NCBI GenBank assembly: GCA_030418115.1
Contig: JAUHQD010000007.1
Coordinates: forward strand, 62,001 to 126,000
Direction: 5' to 3'
Origin: Alteromonadaceae bacterium BrNp21-10
GTDB lineage: Bacteria; Pseudomonadota; Gammaproteobacteria; Enterobacterales; Alteromonadaceae
DNA: 64,000 nucleotides
The position numbers and the translations under genes are program-made. The notes beneath the pieces are model-generated. The model ran no database searches. It was not told the DNA's origin and worked only from the letters and a program-made list of their open reading frames with translations. Below are positions 52,985 through 61,986 of the stretch, one piece after another; position 1 is the stretch's first letter; each line of letters begins with the position of its first letter.

Positions 52985-54042
52985 TTAAAATTCTGGATAT
53001 TTATCTCGCCCGCACATTAATCGGCACTACCTTTTTCAGTTTAAGTATTTTGGTGGGTTTAAGCAGCTTGCTGAAGTTTGTCGATCAACTTAAACAAATC
53101 GGTGTAGGTAGTTACGACATGACCGTGGCCGGTATTTATGTGTTGTTGAGTATGCCCCGTGAAATCGAGCAGTTTTTCCCTATGGCCACCTTAATCGGCG
53201 GTTTAATTGGTTTAGGTATTTTGGCTAGCAGTAGTGAACTGGTGGTGATGCAAAGTGCCGGTTTGAGTAAGTGGAATATTATTGTCTCTTGTATGAAAAC
53301 CGCCTTGTTGATGGTGATTTTTGTGATGGCGTTGGGAGAATGGGTCGCGCCAGTCACTGAAACACAGGCTAAAGAGATCCGTATTCAGGCGATATCCGGA
53401 GGTAGTCTGTTTTCCGGTGACAGGTTAGTGTGGGCTAAAGATGGTGATAACTTTGTCAGTATTGGTGAAGTGACCAACATCAACCAGCTGAATAAAGTCA
53501 ATATTTACCAGTTTGATAGCAGCCTTAATTTGCAACAAATTACCACTGCGGATAAAGCCTTTTTTATGGGGCAAAGCTGGCGCTTAACCGGCGTGAGTTA
53601 TACCTATTTTAATGAGGATAATATTCGCTTGGATCATGCCGACCAAGCTCGCTGGCAATCAACACTGACACCAGACAAATTGGGCGTGGTCACCATCAAG
53701 CCCGAAGCCCTATCTATCCGTGGGTTAATGGATTACGTTACTTACTTACAAAACAATAGCCAAGATGCTAACCGCTATGAACTGGCCTTGTGGCGTAAAA
53801 TTTTGCAACCGGTATCGGTGGCAGTGATGTTGTTAATGGCGTTGTCATTTATCTTCGGGCCATTACGTAGTGTGACCATGGGCGCGAGGGTGATTATGGG
53901 TGTACTGACCGGCTTTGGTTTTTTCATCACTAATGAAATCTTCGGCCCGCTGAGTATGGTCTATCAAATGCCGCCGGTAGTGGGGGCGTTACTCCCTAGT
54001 TTGACCTTTGCGGGCTTGGCGGTATATCTCATTCGCCGTTAA
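52981..54042 (+). CDS. lptG: LPS export permease LptG
   Basis: A 353-residue partner of LptF, starting at ATG 52981 that overlaps the lptF stop (ATGA). The longer frame from 52879 lies within lptF and is not used. The start MIKILDIYLARTLIGTTFFS, the MPREIEQFFPMATLIGGLIGLG helix and VMQSAGLSKWNI are LptG family features; the C-terminal helices include LLMALSFIFGPLRSVTMG. It works with LptF and LptB in LPS transport. Its 3' end overlaps the convergent M20 gene by 14 bases. Confidence 0.95.
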   Translation: MIKILDIYLARTLIGTTFFSLSILVGLSSLLKFVDQLKQIGVGSYDMTVAGIYVLLSMPREIEQFFPMATLIGGLIGLGILASSSELVVMQSAGLSKWNIIVSCMKTALLMVIFVMALGEWVAPVTETQAKEIRIQAISGGSLFSGDRLVWAKDGDNFVSIGEVTNINQLNKVNIYQFDSSLNLQQITTADKAFFMGQSWRLTGVSYTYFNEDNIRLDHADQARWQSTLTPDKLGVVTIKPEALSIRGLMDYVTYLQNNSQDANRYELALWRKILQPVSVAVMLLMALSFIFGPLRSVTMGARVIMGVLTGFGFFITNEIFGPLSMVYQMPPVVGALLPSLTFAGLAVYLIRR

Positions 54043-55435
54043 TATGTTGCTCACCAGCGAGTGATTTAATAATAATGCTCCAGTGATCTAAACCATCATA
54101 AAACGCTTTAATAGGCAGGCGTTCATTTAAACCGTGGGCAAACATTTCATCTGGATCCATAAACACACTGGCCATCGCCCAAGTCGGAATACCCGCGGCG
54201 CGAAAATGCATACCATCAGTGCCCCCCGATTCCATATAACCTAAGATACCGACATCGGGATAGCGCGGGTGCACTGCCTTACCAATAGCGGTCATCACGT
54301 CTTCGCGTAATTCCGAAATGGGACTTTCTATAGGCTCGTCTAAGGTTACAAATTCCACATTTAAATTATTCACCACAATCTGCAATTGTTGTTTTACTTC
54401 TGCTACTGGCGTACCGGGAAATACTCGACAATTAACCGTGGCAGTGGCCGATTGTGGCAGGGCATTTTCTGCATGGCCTGCACGTAGTTTTGTGGGGACG
54501 CAGGTTGTTCTTGTGGTGCCAACATAAGAGGATTCAGTGAACAAACGGTCAGCGGCGGCTTTGTTAGTGGGGTCTTTGGCAAAATCGATCATGGCTTGGC
54601 CTAATTCACCGCCTAGTTGCTTTCCAGAAACCGCAAAAAAGTTGCGGGTCATTTCACTCCACTGCACCGGGAAACGGTATTGCTGAATATTAGATAATGC
54701 GTCAGCAAGATCATAAATGGCGTTGTCCAATCTTGGGCGAGAACTATGCCCACCTTTATTGCGTACTGTTAACTCAAAGGTGACGTAGGTTTTTTCAGCG
54801 GCCTGCACTAAATAGGCAATAGCTTTGCCGTCAGCATTAAGGTCACCACCGCCGGCATCGGAATTAAGTGCATATTCGGCTTTTAATAGTTCGGGTAACG
54901 AGGCGAGCAAACGAGTTGTTTGCATTTGTGTTTCTTCGTCGCCGGAAAAGGCAATGATCAAATCTCGATCCGGTACGTAACCGGCTTTTTTAAGTCGAAT
55001 AAAGGTGGACGACAACATAGCAACACCCAGTTTGTTGTCGATGGTGCCACGACCATAAAAGTAATTTTCATCTTGGGTCAGGATAAATGGCGGGCGTTGC
55101 CAATCTTTGTCTAGCGCATCGACCACGTCCATATGCCCTAAAAACAAAATCGGTTTTTGCTCTGGGTTACTGCCCCGATATCTTAGGGTTAGGGCCACTG
55201 TTTCACCAACGGGGATGATATTGACATCGTCTTTTGTAAAGCCGGCAGCGTAATATTGGTCTGCTAAATAAGCGGCCATCTTAGGCACATTGCCGCGCCC
55301 CTCAACGGTAGGGATGCCAATAATAGTGCGATAAATTTCTAATGTTTTAAGGGCATGTTCTGAGTCTTTATTTTCTATAGCAAATACTTGTGATGTCGCA
55401 AAGGTGAATAAAAACAACAGTAATGACTTAGACAT
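54029..55435 (-). CDS. Exported M20-family metallopeptidase
   Basis: A 468-residue zinc peptidase with a signal peptide (SLLLFLFTFATSQVFA). The M20 metal ligands are evident in ILFLGHMDVVDAL, YGRGTIDNKLGVAM, the catalytic SGDEETQM and NSDAGGGDLNADG; the dimerisation domain is in the middle, around the segment GGHSSRPRLDNAIYDLADA. Such enzymes cleave small peptides or acylated amino acids in the periplasm. It is on the minus strand, overlaps the lptG end and has its own upstream region of about 227 bases. Confidence 0.9.
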   Translation of the reverse strand: MSKSLLLFLFTFATSQVFAIENKDSEHALKTLEIYRTIIGIPTVEGRGNVPKMAAYLADQYYAAGFTKDDVNIIPVGETVALTLRYRGSNPEQKPILFLGHMDVVDALDKDWQRPPFILTQDENYFYGRGTIDNKLGVAMLSSTFIRLKKAGYVPDRDLIIAFSGDEETQMQTTRLLASLPELLKAEYALNSDAGGGDLNADGKAIAYLVQAAEKTYVTFELTVRNKGGHSSRPRLDNAIYDLADALSNIQQYRFPVQWSEMTRNFFAVSGKQLGGELGQAMIDFAKDPTNKAAADRLFTESSYVGTTRTTCVPTKLRAGHAENALPQSATATVNCRVFPGTPVAEVKQQLQIVVNNLNVEFVTLDEPIESPISELREDVMTAIGKAVHPRYPDVGILGYMESGGTDGMHFRAAGIPTWAMASVFMDPDEMFAHGLNERLPIKAFYDGLDHWSIIIKSLAGEQHINGE

Positions 55436-55662: not shown

Positions 55663-57243
55663 ATGAAACAGGGATTAAGCAGACGAGAATGTTTGTTCAT
55701 GTTGGCCAAAATAGCCGGGTCTTCCGCAGCCATAATGCATGCTGCCGAGGCACTGGGTATTCCTCAGCCGGTTTCCTCCTTCAACAATAACAAATTAAAA
55801 AAAGTATCGGGTAAGCGCCCCCATGTGCTGATTTTAGGCGCGGGCATTAGTGCGCTGGTGAGTGCCTATGAATTATCTCGCGCCGGTTATTCCTGCGAAG
55901 TGCTAGAGGCCTCATCAAGAATTGGTGGGCGAAATATGACGCTTCGTCATGGCGATGTGATTGATGAAATTGGCAACCGACAAATCTGTGATTTTGATGA
56001 TGAGCCTAATTTGTATTTCAATGCAGGCCCTGCACGACTGCCCGCACATCATCATGGCATATTGCATTATTGCCGCGAGCTAGGAGTGCAACTACAAGTT
56101 TTTAATAATTATAACCGCAACTGTTACACCCAAGACGACAACGTCTTTGATGGTAAGCCCATTCGTATTGGTGAATACGAAGCGGATATTCAAGGTTTTA
56201 CCAATGAGTTATTAGCTAAATCATTAAGGCACACAAAACATTTAGATGCGCCATTTGATGAATCTGATTTTGAAAGAATGTTGCAGTACGTGAAAACCCA
56301 AGGCGCATTGGATAACGAATTTAAATACCAAGGCAGTACATTGTCGGGTTGGCAATCTGGTGGGGTATTTGCCCCAGGTAAGATGAAAACTCCACGGGGA
56401 TTTGCAGATTTACTCAAAAGTAATTTTTGGGCCGGTGGCATGATTTTTACCCAATGGGCGGATCAGGAGCCCGCAATGATGACGCCCGTTGGCGGTATGG
56501 ACAGCATCGTTAAACACTTTTTGCCCCATGTTCAAGATAAAATAAAACTCAATGCTCAGGTGCAACGTATACAAAATCAAGACCATGGAGTGGACGTGCA
56601 ATACATGCAGCATGGTCAACTAAAAACTACCCGTGGTGATTACTGCCTAAACTGCATTCCCAGTGAGATATTGTCGGGTATCGATCATAACTTCCCCGAT
56701 GACTACAGCCATATGATGGCCAAAATGCATAGAGGTAAGTTGATTAAATTCGGCCTGCAAGCCAAAGAGCGCTTTTGGGAAAAAGACGACATTTACAATG
56801 GCATCAGTTGGACTAATCAAGACATCACGCAAATCTGGTATCCGGAGCATGGCATCTTCGCTAAAAAAGGTGTGCTGCTAGGCGGGTATTCTTGGGTGCC
56901 TGAGATAGTTGACCGCTTTGCAGCAATGAGTAGCAGCCAGCGTATTGAATCGGTGTTAGCCCAGGGCGAAAAAATTCATCCTCAATATCGTCAGTACATC
57001 GAAAAAGGCGTAAGTATTTGCTGGCACCGCATGAATCACCAGTTGGGTTGCGGCACACTATGGGATGACGAACATTACGCCGCCGGCTTTGAACTACTGC
57101 AAAAACCTACAGGACGGCATTATTTAATGGGTGACCAAATGGCGCTCTTAGAAGGTTGGCAAGAAGGGGCAGTGCAATCGGCGTGGTATGCCATGCAAGA
57201 TATTGAAAAACGTCAATCCCATAAAAGTGGGGTAAGCGCATGA
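55663..57243 (+). CDS. Tat-exported flavin monoamine or L-amino-acid oxidase family protein
   Basis: A 526-residue flavoprotein. The N-terminus contains SRREC at residues 6-10, a twin-arginine export signal ahead of a moderately hydrophobic stretch. The FAD-binding core is VLILGAGISALVSAYELSRAG (GxGxxG at about 59-64) followed by EVLEASSRIGGRN, and the C-terminal flavin loop YLMGDQMALLEGWQEGAV. Family members oxidise amines or amino acids to imines. The neighbouring exported cytochrome c suggests electrons leave through that protein rather than to oxygen, which is inference. It overlaps the next gene by four bases, so the three following genes form one operon. Confidence 0.88.
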   Translation: MKQGLSRRECLFMLAKIAGSSAAIMHAAEALGIPQPVSSFNNNKLKKVSGKRPHVLILGAGISALVSAYELSRAGYSCEVLEASSRIGGRNMTLRHGDVIDEIGNRQICDFDDEPNLYFNAGPARLPAHHHGILHYCRELGVQLQVFNNYNRNCYTQDDNVFDGKPIRIGEYEADIQGFTNELLAKSLRHTKHLDAPFDESDFERMLQYVKTQGALDNEFKYQGSTLSGWQSGGVFAPGKMKTPRGFADLLKSNFWAGGMIFTQWADQEPAMMTPVGGMDSIVKHFLPHVQDKIKLNAQVQRIQNQDHGVDVQYMQHGQLKTTRGDYCLNCIPSEILSGIDHNFPDDYSHMMAKMHRGKLIKFGLQAKERFWEKDDIYNGISWTNQDITQIWYPEHGIFAKKGVLLGGYSWVPEIVDRFAAMSSSQRIESVLAQGEKIHPQYRQYIEKGVSICWHRMNHQLGCGTLWDDEHYAAGFELLQKPTGRHYLMGDQMALLEGWQEGAVQSAWYAMQDIEKRQSHKSGVSA

Positions 57244-57848
57244 AGATTCTAGGTACTATCCTCGCTCTTTTAGCCTTCACGTTTTCTACAAGTACATTCG
57301 CCACCGACGCCAAGGCATTACCCAATTGCGTGCAGTGCCATGGTACTAATTTAAAAGGTAATCCCGCATTAATGGCACCTAACTTAGCCATCTTGCCCCA
57401 GTGGTACATACGTGCGCAAATAGCCAGTTATCAACAAGGATGGCGCAGTAATAATGTAGAGCAAACGTTCGCTAAGGATATGGAAGCCGTGGCAAAGAGC
57501 CTTTCTGCTGAAGACATTAACGTTGCTCTAGCATTTATCAACACAGTAGCAAAAACAATCCCGCGACAAACTATTCAAGGTGATGTAGCCAAGGGCAAAG
57601 TGCTGTATCTACAATGTGCCGCCTGCCATGGTGATAACGCCCAAGGCAATCAGAATTTAGCTGCGCCGCCATTAGCGGGGCAAACCGATTGGTATTTAGC
57701 TAAGCAATTGCACGCGTACAAAAATGCTAATAGAGGGTTTAGTGCCGAGGATAAATCCGGCCAGTTAATGCTTAATAGCATTGCGATGTTGCCAACCGCC
57801 GCCGACGTGGACAACGTTGTCGCCTATATTCAATCAATACATCCCTAA
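57240..57848 (+). CDS. Exported dihaem cytochrome c (c4-like)
   Basis: A 202-residue protein with signal peptide (ILALLAFTFSTSTFA). Two haem c motifs are present: CVQCH at residues 30-34 and CAACH at 126-130, each in a domain of about 90 residues with a later Met that could be the sixth ligand (NSIAMLPTAADV in the second). It is a small periplasmic electron carrier. Its ATG overlaps the flavin oxidase stop, and the RidA gene starts 33 bases later, so all three are probably made together. It is the likely electron acceptor of the flavoprotein. Confidence 0.9.
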   Translation: MKILGTILALLAFTFSTSTFATDAKALPNCVQCHGTNLKGNPALMAPNLAILPQWYIRAQIASYQQGWRSNNVEQTFAKDMEAVAKSLSAEDINVALAFINTVAKTIPRQTIQGDVAKGKVLYLQCAACHGDNAQGNQNLAAPPLAGQTDWYLAKQLHAYKNANRGFSAEDKSGQLMLNSIAMLPTAADVDNVVAYIQSIHP

Positions 57849-57881
57849 TTTCAGCCTAATTAAATAATTTTGGAGAACAGC

Positions 57882-58376
57882 ATGAAAAAACAACTTTGTA
57901 TGGCCGCCTTGGCCCTTTTTGTTACTACACAAGTTAGTGCCGACGCGGTAAAACGTTATCCATTACCCGGTGGTAGCAGTTTTCCCATTGCCTCGGCGGT
58001 AGAAGTAAAAGCGGGTAGTACCATTTTTGAAAGTGGTAATATTCCCTCACCTAAAGATGCAAAAGCAGAAGCTGGCACCTTAGCCTTTTGGGGCAACACC
58101 GAAGAACAAACCGACAGCGTGTTAGCCAAAATTGAAGCATCCCTAAAAGGCAAGGGCCTTGATATGGGCAGCGTTGTTAAAATGACGGTGTTCTTAGTCG
58201 GCGACCCTGCTATGGACGGCAAAATGGACTTCAGTGGTTTTATGAAAAGCTACGTTAGATATTTTGGCACTGAAGCTCAACCTAATTTACCGGCCCGCTC
58301 TGCGGTACAAGTAGCCGGTTTAGTTGCCCCAGGAATGATGGTGGAAATAGAGGTTATTGCCGTTCGGCCAGAATAA
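57882..58376 (+). CDS. Exported RidA-family imine deaminase
   Basis: A 164-residue RidA/YjgF protein counted from ATG 57882, which follows TGGAGA; TTG at 57870 is less likely. A signal peptide (LALFVTTQVSADA) makes it periplasmic, unlike most RidA proteins, which are cytoplasmic. The family core is intact: NTEEQTDSVLAKIEASLKG, VVKMTVFLV and the key Arg in PARSAVQVAGL, the residue that in RidA holds the substrate carboxylate. It probably hydrolyses the imine made by the flavin oxidase encoded two genes upstream, releasing ammonia and a keto product. Confidence 0.9.
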   Translation: MKKQLCMAALALFVTTQVSADAVKRYPLPGGSSFPIASAVEVKAGSTIFESGNIPSPKDAKAEAGTLAFWGNTEEQTDSVLAKIEASLKGKGLDMGSVVKMTVFLVGDPAMDGKMDFSGFMKSYVRYFGTEAQPNLPARSAVQVAGLVAPGMMVEIEVIAVRPE

Positions 58377-60331: not shown

Positions 60332-60670
60332 ATGAATTTTGAATTACTTACAGATGAACAAATTCTTCATGCCATGGGAGAGCAATTTGAATCCTTGCGC
60401 CTGCAGAAACAGATCCCGGATAAAGACATTCAGGATAAGGGCGGCATTGGCAAAGACGCTATAGACAAACTTCGTAATCAGCGCGGCAATATCACCCTTA
60501 TAAGCCTAATTCGCATTCTCCGTGGATTGGGAGAGCTTGAGCGTTTAGAAAAGCTATTAAGTTCCAATACCGAATACTCACCTAGCAAACAACAGAAGCC
60601 GCTTAAAAAACGGATCTTCAAAAAATCCGCTAAAGCATCCACCGAATTTAAGTGGGGCGATGAGTCATGA
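60332..60670 (+). CDS. HipB-like helix-turn-helix antitoxin
   Basis: A 112-residue small basic protein. A helical segment of about 60 residues (EQFESLRLQKQIPDKDIQ, GIGKDAIDKLRNQRGN, ISLIRILRGLGELERLEKLL) has the spacing of an Xre/HipB helix-turn-helix, and a Lys-rich tail (PLKKRIFKKSAKAS) follows. The stop overlaps the start of the HipA-like gene (ATGA), the usual layout of hipBA pairs. It should bind and inhibit the kinase and repress the operon. The HTH assignment is from pattern and position. Confidence 0.82.
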   Translation: MNFELLTDEQILHAMGEQFESLRLQKQIPDKDIQDKGGIGKDAIDKLRNQRGNITLISLIRILRGLGELERLEKLLSSNTEYSPSKQQKPLKKRIFKKSAKASTEFKWGDES

Positions 60671-61986
60671 AGGATATTGTTGAAGTAAAACTATGGGGTA
60701 CCACTATTGGCCATATAGGTTATAAACCTAATCAAACAGCCGTGGCCACTTTTGAATATACCGGTGCGTTGTTAAATTCATCTATCGAAGTGTCACCCAT
60801 TAAATTACCCAACTCGATTACAACACATTCATTCCCTGATATTAGCCAACGAACATTTAAAGGCTTGCCAGGTATCTTCGCTGATAGTTTGCCGGATAAA
60901 TTTGGCAATCAACTCATTGATATTTACCTTGCTGAGAAAGGTATTGTGGAATCAGCTATCACTACGCTCGACCGGTTGTTATATGTTGGCAATAGAGCAA
61001 TGGGAGCGATTGAATATCACCCTTCGGAGTCGTTTACCAACAATGATATTGGTTCGCTTTCACTGGACATTAACCGATTGTCTGAATTGGCCAATCTAGC
61101 CCAGAAGAATAAAACAGAATTAAGCGGCCAATTATCCGATGCCAACACACGAACTCAAGCACTTAATTTTATTCGCGTTAGCTCAAGTGCTGGTGGCGCT
61201 AGATCAAAAGCATTAGTCGCCATTGATAAAGATAAAAACCTTAAAGACGGCACTGTCGATCATGGGATTGATCACACTTACTGGTTACTTAAGTTCGATA
61301 GCGAAGAGAACAAAGATAGGGACAGCGCTGATCCAAAAGGCATGACTAAGGTTGAGTATATCTATTCACTGATAGCTAGGCAGTGTGACATTGATATGCC
61401 CGACACTGATTACATTGCCAATGGTGATGATTTTCATTTTATGATCAAACGCTTTGACCGGATTATCCGCAACAACAAAATTGACAAGGTGCATTACGCC
61501 TCTTGGTCTGGTCTTGCACACGCACACAGGGACGAAACAGGCGCATATTCTTATGAACAACTTGTATTGTTAGCCAGACAGTTAAATCTAGGCCAAGACG
61601 CAATTACAGAGTTATTTAGACGCGCTGTATTTAACGTTATTGGGCGCAACCAAGATGATCACACTAAGAACTTCGGATTTTTAATGAATAGGGCGGGGGA
61701 GTGGTCGTTAGCACCGGCATTTGATATGACCTATTCGTATGATCCCACCGGCCAGTGGACTAAAACCCATCAAATTAAATTAGCGGGTAAGCAAAGTTCA
61801 TTTTCAATTGATGATTTAGTGCGTTTTGGAAAGCATTGTAATTTGAAGCCCAAGCAGGCCAACGGAATTATCGAACAAGTAACAACGGCATTCGCTCAAT
61901 TTGGGCAGCTTGCAATGGATTATGATGTTAGTACAAACCTGATAAGCACCATCGAAACAAATATCATTAAGCTCAATGGTTTCTAG
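60667..61986 (+). CDS. HipA-like serine/threonine kinase toxin
   Basis: A 439-residue protein of the HipA family. The N-terminal region (VKLWGTTIGHIGY, GLPGIFADSLPDKFGNQLI) matches the HipA N-terminal subdomain. The kinase core includes the ATP-contacting SSAGGARSKALVAI, HWxxK-like TYWLLKF, MIKRFDR, and the catalytic loop NVIGRNQDDHTKNFGF followed by the metal-binding region LAPAFDMTYSYDP. E. coli HipA phosphorylates glutamyl-tRNA synthetase; whether the target is the same here is unknown. It is coupled to the HipB-like gene by a four-base overlap. Confidence 0.92.
   Translation: MKDIVEVKLWGTTIGHIGYKPNQTAVATFEYTGALLNSSIEVSPIKLPNSITTHSFPDISQRTFKGLPGIFADSLPDKFGNQLIDIYLAEKGIVESAITTLDRLLYVGNRAMGAIEYHPSESFTNNDIGSLSLDINRLSELANLAQKNKTELSGQLSDANTRTQALNFIRVSSSAGGARSKALVAIDKDKNLKDGTVDHGIDHTYWLLKFDSEENKDRDSADPKGMTKVEYIYSLIARQCDIDMPDTDYIANGDDFHFMIKRFDRIIRNNKIDKVHYASWSGLAHAHRDETGAYSYEQLVLLARQLNLGQDAITELFRRAVFNVIGRNQDDHTKNFGFLMNRAGEWSLAPAFDMTYSYDPTGQWTKTHQIKLAGKQSSFSIDDLVRFGKHCNLKPKQANGIIEQVTTAFAQFGQLAMDYDVSTNLISTIETNIIKLNGF

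Follow-up and report, generated by a model that had tools for sequence, protein, structure and literature searches.

A proposed periplasmic L-amino-acid dehydrogenase operon with a dihaem cytochrome c and an exported Rid3-like protein in an Alteromonadaceae bacterium

Introduction

What does an exported flavoenzyme oxidise, and where do its electrons go, when it is encoded together with a cytochrome c and a Rid protein that also carries an export signal? The question is raised by three adjacent genes in a 64,000-nucleotide stretch of DNA (the window) from Alteromonadaceae bacterium BrNp21-10 (GCA_030418115.1, contig JAUHQD010000007.1). A preliminary description of the window took them for a periplasmic module for amine or amino-acid oxidation: a flavin enzyme making an imine, a cytochrome passing the electrons to respiration and an unusual exported RidA hydrolysing the imine.

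The gene set and most of this hypothesis are already published (PMC5053998; PMC12224317). The first paper, from 2016, describes lao-cccA-ridA of Gluconacetobacter diazotrophicus PAL5 (GDI2456-2454), with the arrangement reported for Caulobacter and Xanthomonas too: insertions in lao lowered all three transcripts (lao, cccA and ridA) and abolished conversion of tryptophan to IAA, mutants in ccm (cytochrome maturation) kept only about 5% of the IAA, and cytochrome c and RidA were put forward as helpers of a periplasmic LAAO (PMC5053998). From another direction, NicA2/Pnao with CycN and clades 1-3 of the FAOs are cytochrome c-using flavoprotein amine dehydrogenases (PMC9396064; PMC12224317). Cytochrome c-using flavin amine dehydrogenases with a Tat signal and an adjacent cytochrome had been demonstrated by 2025, and among FAOs tested kinetically, sampled by similarity to NicA2, the combination of a Tat signal with a neighbouring cytochrome gene is predictive of cytochrome, and not O2, as acceptor (PMC12224317). 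As for Rid, a 2015 survey noted clustering of Rid3 genes with those of FAD amine oxidases and described the substrates of Rid1-Rid3 in vivo as entirely unknown (PMC4433059); PFL_1385 and PSPTO_3006, both of the Rid3 subfamily, hydrolyse imines from L-amino-acid oxidase (PMC5619798). A full-text literature search on RidA outside the cytoplasm (exported, periplasmic or secreted) and on sets of LAAO, RidA and cytochrome yielded just two papers, the one on G. diazotrophicus and one on Chlamydomonas that cites it.

Results

The three genes form a tight operon for a Tat flavoenzyme (here LAO), a dihaem cytochrome and a signal-bearing Rid protein (Table 1). The exported three-gene module is real: the open reading frames, Pfam domains and haem motifs are all present, and export signals were recognised by eye in all three products (the twin-arginine SRRECLFML in LAO, MKILGTILALLAFTFSTSTFA in the cytochrome and the Rid signal listed in Table 1). 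LAO starts at the ATG at 55663 and ends in a TGA, with a 4-base overlap with the ATG of the cytochrome gene (ATGA, 57240); the Rid gene follows the cytochrome stop after 33 bases on the same strand. Its start is most likely the ATG at 57882 rather than the upstream TTG at 57870, because a GGAG precedes the former. This trio of genes, in this order, recurs across Proteobacteria, so the set is far beyond chance. Scans for promoters and terminators gave fewer matches than shuffled sequence. Going by their translations, the genes next to the operon on one side encode an exported M20-type peptidase and an LptG-like protein, and those on the other an RDD-like protein and a HipB/HipA-like pair; no flanking gene obviously belongs to the set. 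The peptidase is unsupported as a functional partner, a homologue being found near 1 of 22 related loci (the LAO-Rid pair of L045).

Table 1. Features of the operon and its flanks, with two comparable loci (positions are those of the window unless a locus is named)
Feature	Position	Strand	Description	Basis
Flavoenzyme LAO	55663..57243	+	predicted Tat-type FAD L-amino-acid oxidase/dehydrogenase, 526 aa	PF01593, 4e-37
Cytochrome c	57240..57848	+	dihaem c4-like, Sec signal, 202 aa	PF00034 twice, 3e-21
GGAG	57872-57875	+	likely ribosome-binding site of Rid gene	sequence
Rid protein	57882..58376	+	predicted exported, Rid3-like, 164 aa	PF01042, 6e-20
N-terminal signal of Rid			MKKQLCMAALALFVTTQVSA	by eye
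M20-type peptidase	54029-55435		exported, divergent from the operon	
HipB/HipA-like pair	60332-61986		downstream of the operon	
LAO + cytochrome c behind ctaD	L052 2977-5029; L058 2977-5030			

The reading that we favour, at a probability of roughly 0.7, is a periplasmic L-amino-acid dehydrogenase operon, in which LAO feeds respiration through the cytochrome and the exported Rid clears imines; the acceptor, the substrate and the role of Rid are what we infer. In the periplasm, Tat-exported LAO would oxidise L-amino acids, yielding 2-imino acids, and its reduced FAD would pass single electrons to the dihaem c4-like cytochrome of the operon; the cytochrome would hand them on to a haem-copper terminal oxidase. 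The exported Rid3-like protein would speed the conversion of 2-imino acid to 2-oxo acid and ammonium, ahead of side reactions. The cell would gain nitrogen, a carbon skeleton and respiratory electrons, with no prior amino-acid uptake and little peroxide.

Gene order, export signals, residue conservation and genomic linkage are direct observations. Eighty loci with a close LAO relative were gathered from whole genomes, GTDB contigs and plasmids, and both partners lie downstream of LAO in 51 of these 80, a count whose rows are not independent, since many come from one genus and some flanks reach only 1.5 kb. The 51 comprise 34 loci with a dihaem cytochrome and Rid and 17 with a mono-haem cytochrome and Rid; of the remainder, 12 have the cytochrome only, 9 Rid only and 8 neither. 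In the tree, the window belongs to a clade with full support, in which 35 of the 36 rows have a dihaem cytochrome, and the mono-haem loci make up a separate clade. A third, sister group (10 rows) keeps LAO and Rid with no adjacent cytochrome, so the cytochrome is not obligatory. The reverse test, from Rid to LAO, is stronger: among 299 proteobacterial genomes, 23 have a close Rid relative, and in 22 of the 23 LAO is present too, never more than about 4 kb away. The Rid relative of the 23rd genome is a truncated fragment, and all 22 intact ones are linked to LAO.

Two further observations concern the relatives of the operon. A TonB-dependent receptor-like gene adjoins it in seven related loci (L029, L033-L038), which suggests uptake of an outside substrate; the window has no such gene, and in the host genome the closest homologue reaches only 36-39% identity. 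The LAO of a congener of the host (L037) is only 45% identical to that of the window, against 57-58% for other genera, which suggests that horizontal transfer or an old paralogue may lie behind the LAO of the host.

The cytochrome has two haem motifs (C30VQCH and C126AACH) and, as expected of a cytochrome c4, two haem c domains within about 190-200 aa; its best solved relatives are cytochromes c4. A peroxidase function was considered and is rejected, given the c4 matches and the absence of a CCP/MauG family match. We propose the dihaem c4-like protein as the putative electron acceptor of LAO. LAO has the Tat signal and the adjacent cytochrome c gene that mark cytochrome c-using FAO dehydrogenases, and its clade would presumably use cytochrome instead of O2. 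Besides the operon copy, the host genome encodes a separate c4-like dihaem cytochrome, and it also has TatC and three homologues of COX1 (haem-copper oxidase subunit I). On plasmids of Dinoroseobacter and Roseinatronobacter (Rhodobacterales), LAO and cytochrome c lie close behind ctaD cytochrome oxidase genes, and in the Gram-positive Metabacillus a LAO-Rid pair is followed by tatA-tatC. Like NicA2/Pnao-CycN and FAO clades 1-3, the window pairs a Tat-exported enzyme of the FAO superfamily with a co-encoded cytochrome c, and clade 1 pairs share its dihaem c4-type cytochrome. Those clades were found by similarity to NicA2, whereas the LAO of the window is nearest to L-amino-acid oxidase (NicA2 is absent among its 60 best PDB matches, and LAAO comes first), and RidA is unmentioned in the 2025 study, whereas the set in the window includes Rid (PMC12224317). 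Against the dehydrogenase reading, the dihaem c4-type partners of clade 1 gave slow transfer in vitro in that study (PMC12224317).

LAO could alternatively be a periplasmic O2-using oxidase that releases H2O2 in nitrogen scavenging or antagonism, in the manner of Chlamydomonas LAO1 and the peroxide-producing marine LAAOs, with the cytochrome incidental or a peroxide sink. The nearest biochemically known relatives of LAO are indeed true oxidases, and some relatives have LAO, with or without Rid, but no adjacent cytochrome. Chlamydomonas LAO1/LAO2 resembles the window in that an exported LAAO and its RidA-like partner both lie outside the cell membrane, and it makes H2O2; unlike the window, it is eukaryotic, uses O2 and has no cytochrome (PMC10805672). 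That cytochrome c lies downstream in 63 of the 80 loci and in nearly all of the window's clade (35/36), that it stands with LAO behind ctaD at two loci, and that it resembles c4 and not the dihaem peroxidases all argue against this, and we regard the O2-using oxidase as unlikely.

A different purpose for the operon is suggested by G. diazotrophicus, whose lao-cccA-ridA matches it gene for gene and in order, with an LAAO-like gene first and a Tat signal on its product (PMC5053998). The sequences were compared through peptides translated from the published qPCR primers. The GDI2456 peptides YPSHGYF and QVIHPNY keep a constant 11-residue offset against the LAO of the window, and those of GDI2454 (ASTIYL at residue 48, KLGKID at 113) indicate that it shares the N-terminal extension of the exported Rid. 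The cytochrome GDI2455 is a short mono-haem protein (AIYQHV at residue 41), whereas that of the window is dihaem; nor does the accessible text discuss export of RidA (PMC5053998), whereas the Rid of the window has an export signal. By analogy the operon might be mainly biosynthetic or signalling, turning external tryptophan into indole-3-pyruvate and then auxin, rather than serving general catabolism. The IAA loss of lao mutants, the in-register orthology of the primer-encoded peptides and the occurrence of relatives in rhizobia and Roseobacter-group bacteria speak for this, but no auxin pathway gene was recognised next to the operon in the window, and the TonB receptors at seven related loci suggest uptake of substrates from outside. 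We consider a mainly biosynthetic or signalling operon quite unlikely.

The favoured dehydrogenase reading names L-amino acids as the substrates, and the flavoenzyme itself points the same way. Its best solved relative is 2jae, the Rhodococcus L-amino-acid oxidase (1e-63); the L-amino-acid oxidases of snake venom (6e-31) and the monoamine oxidases follow far behind. Homology to this Rhodococcus opacus enzyme, an O2-using oxidase that is not known to have a cytochrome operon, is full-length, with its carboxylate arginine and flavin-site lysine both conserved. R125 of LAO aligns with the carboxylate-binding arginine of 2jae, and R125 and K362 are identical in 80/80 relatives; the aromatic W499 is kept in 79/80. 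Going by known LAAO structures, we take the R125 position to bind the substrate carboxylate and K362 to belong to the flavin site. The twin-arginine signal lies at residues 6-14, with S-R-R-E-C-L-F-M at 6-13. An AlphaFold2 model of LAO (8 rows) had a mean pLDDT of 43.5, too poor for use. Because R125 is invariant and 2jae is the closest structure, the substrates are likely to be L-amino acids and not amines, so that of the two substrate classes first suggested the amino acids are retained and the amines given up. That LAO acts on amines, as its place in the amine-oxidase superfamily (PF01593) and the database name of its relatives ('flavin monoamine oxidase family') might suggest, is very improbable in view of the lead of 2jae by >100 bits over the next PDB matches, themselves LAAOs, the arginine in 80/80 and a Tyr378 position that is Y or F in 77/80.

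The best solved relatives of the Rid protein are 9bkc (PFL_1385, 6.5e-33) and 9bka (PSPTO_3006, 9e-31); beyond these, structure matches fall to 4.7e-9 (the next) and 2.5e-8 (TdcF), which places the protein, by sequence, closest to Rid3 rather than to RidA. The aligned part of the PFL_1385 chain starts in an apparent signal peptide. Like the two Rid3 proteins, the Rid of the window keeps the critical arginine (PMC5619798; PMC4433059). This residue, R139, is the equivalent of RidA Arg105, lines up with the PAR motif of a RidA paralogue of the host and is present in 59/59 relatives having the column, which bears out the earlier remark that the key arginine is intact. F-P-I36 would fit the isoleucine that replaces RidA Tyr17, although the aligner leaves a gap at this place against the host paralogue. 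In known relatives, the arginines at the positions of LAO R125 and Rid R139 both bind a carboxylate, so imino acids would fit as the Rid substrate, and we propose that Rid is an exported 2-imino acid hydrolase. Spontaneous hydrolysis of imino acids also occurs, so that Rid may not be strictly needed. The host encodes three further PF01042 proteins, one a canonical cytoplasmic RidA, so the operon Rid would be a dedicated extra copy. About 26 kb from the operon, another Rid-family gene (L109, G000:C31:146752-147066) adjoins a deacylase-like ORF and the gene of a solute symporter; together they may form a cluster for D-amino-acid catabolism.

Export of Rid had been called unusual, but it proves to be the norm for the set, because 57 of 60 Rid proteins encoded beside LAO show, on inspection, a Sec signal, a lipobox or a membrane anchor at the N-terminus. 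The remaining three, with no signal, come from one pseudomonad group, which also lacks the cytochrome. In pseudomonads L076, L078 and L079, Rid is clearly without a signal while LAO keeps an RR motif and a short hydrophobic stretch; a joint loss of LAO and Rid export there is only suggestive. For the Rid of L064 the script rule for signals gave a false negative, and the simple Tat rule, which misses several obvious Tat signals, was excluded as evidence. In uncultured gammaproteobacteria (L026-L031), Rid seems to be tethered to the membrane, because its long N-terminal tail holds one hydrophobic helix.

Discussion

The core of the preliminary description, a respiratory oxidation module with its own exported imine hydrolase, fits all tests that were run, and its linkage is conserved; the parts that fell are the amine substrate and the rarity of an exported Rid. 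What is new here is that the dihaem version is one well-supported clade, and that there is strong evidence for a near-exclusive link between exported Rid3 and LAO. The Rid3 papers assign neither export nor an in vivo partner (PMC5619798; PMC4433059), whereas here both export and linkage to LAO are systematic. On a broader view, we give even odds to the proposition that the flavoprotein amine oxidoreductases of the LAAO branch form one more lineage of dehydrogenases that use cytochrome c, with exported Rid3 providing periplasmic imino-acid hydrolysis for this one enzyme and the cytochrome of the window's clade acting as a two-haem wire to the terminal oxidase.

Through its near-perfect linkage, exported Rid3 gains a specific partner, a substrate class and a compartment, so that its in vivo role becomes testable. 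If the dehydrogenase reading is true, the respiratory, peroxide-free kind of flavin dehydrogenase, known for amines, would also include the L-amino-acid oxidase branch, and bacteria with the operon would have a way to exploit amino acids outside the cell with no need for prior import.
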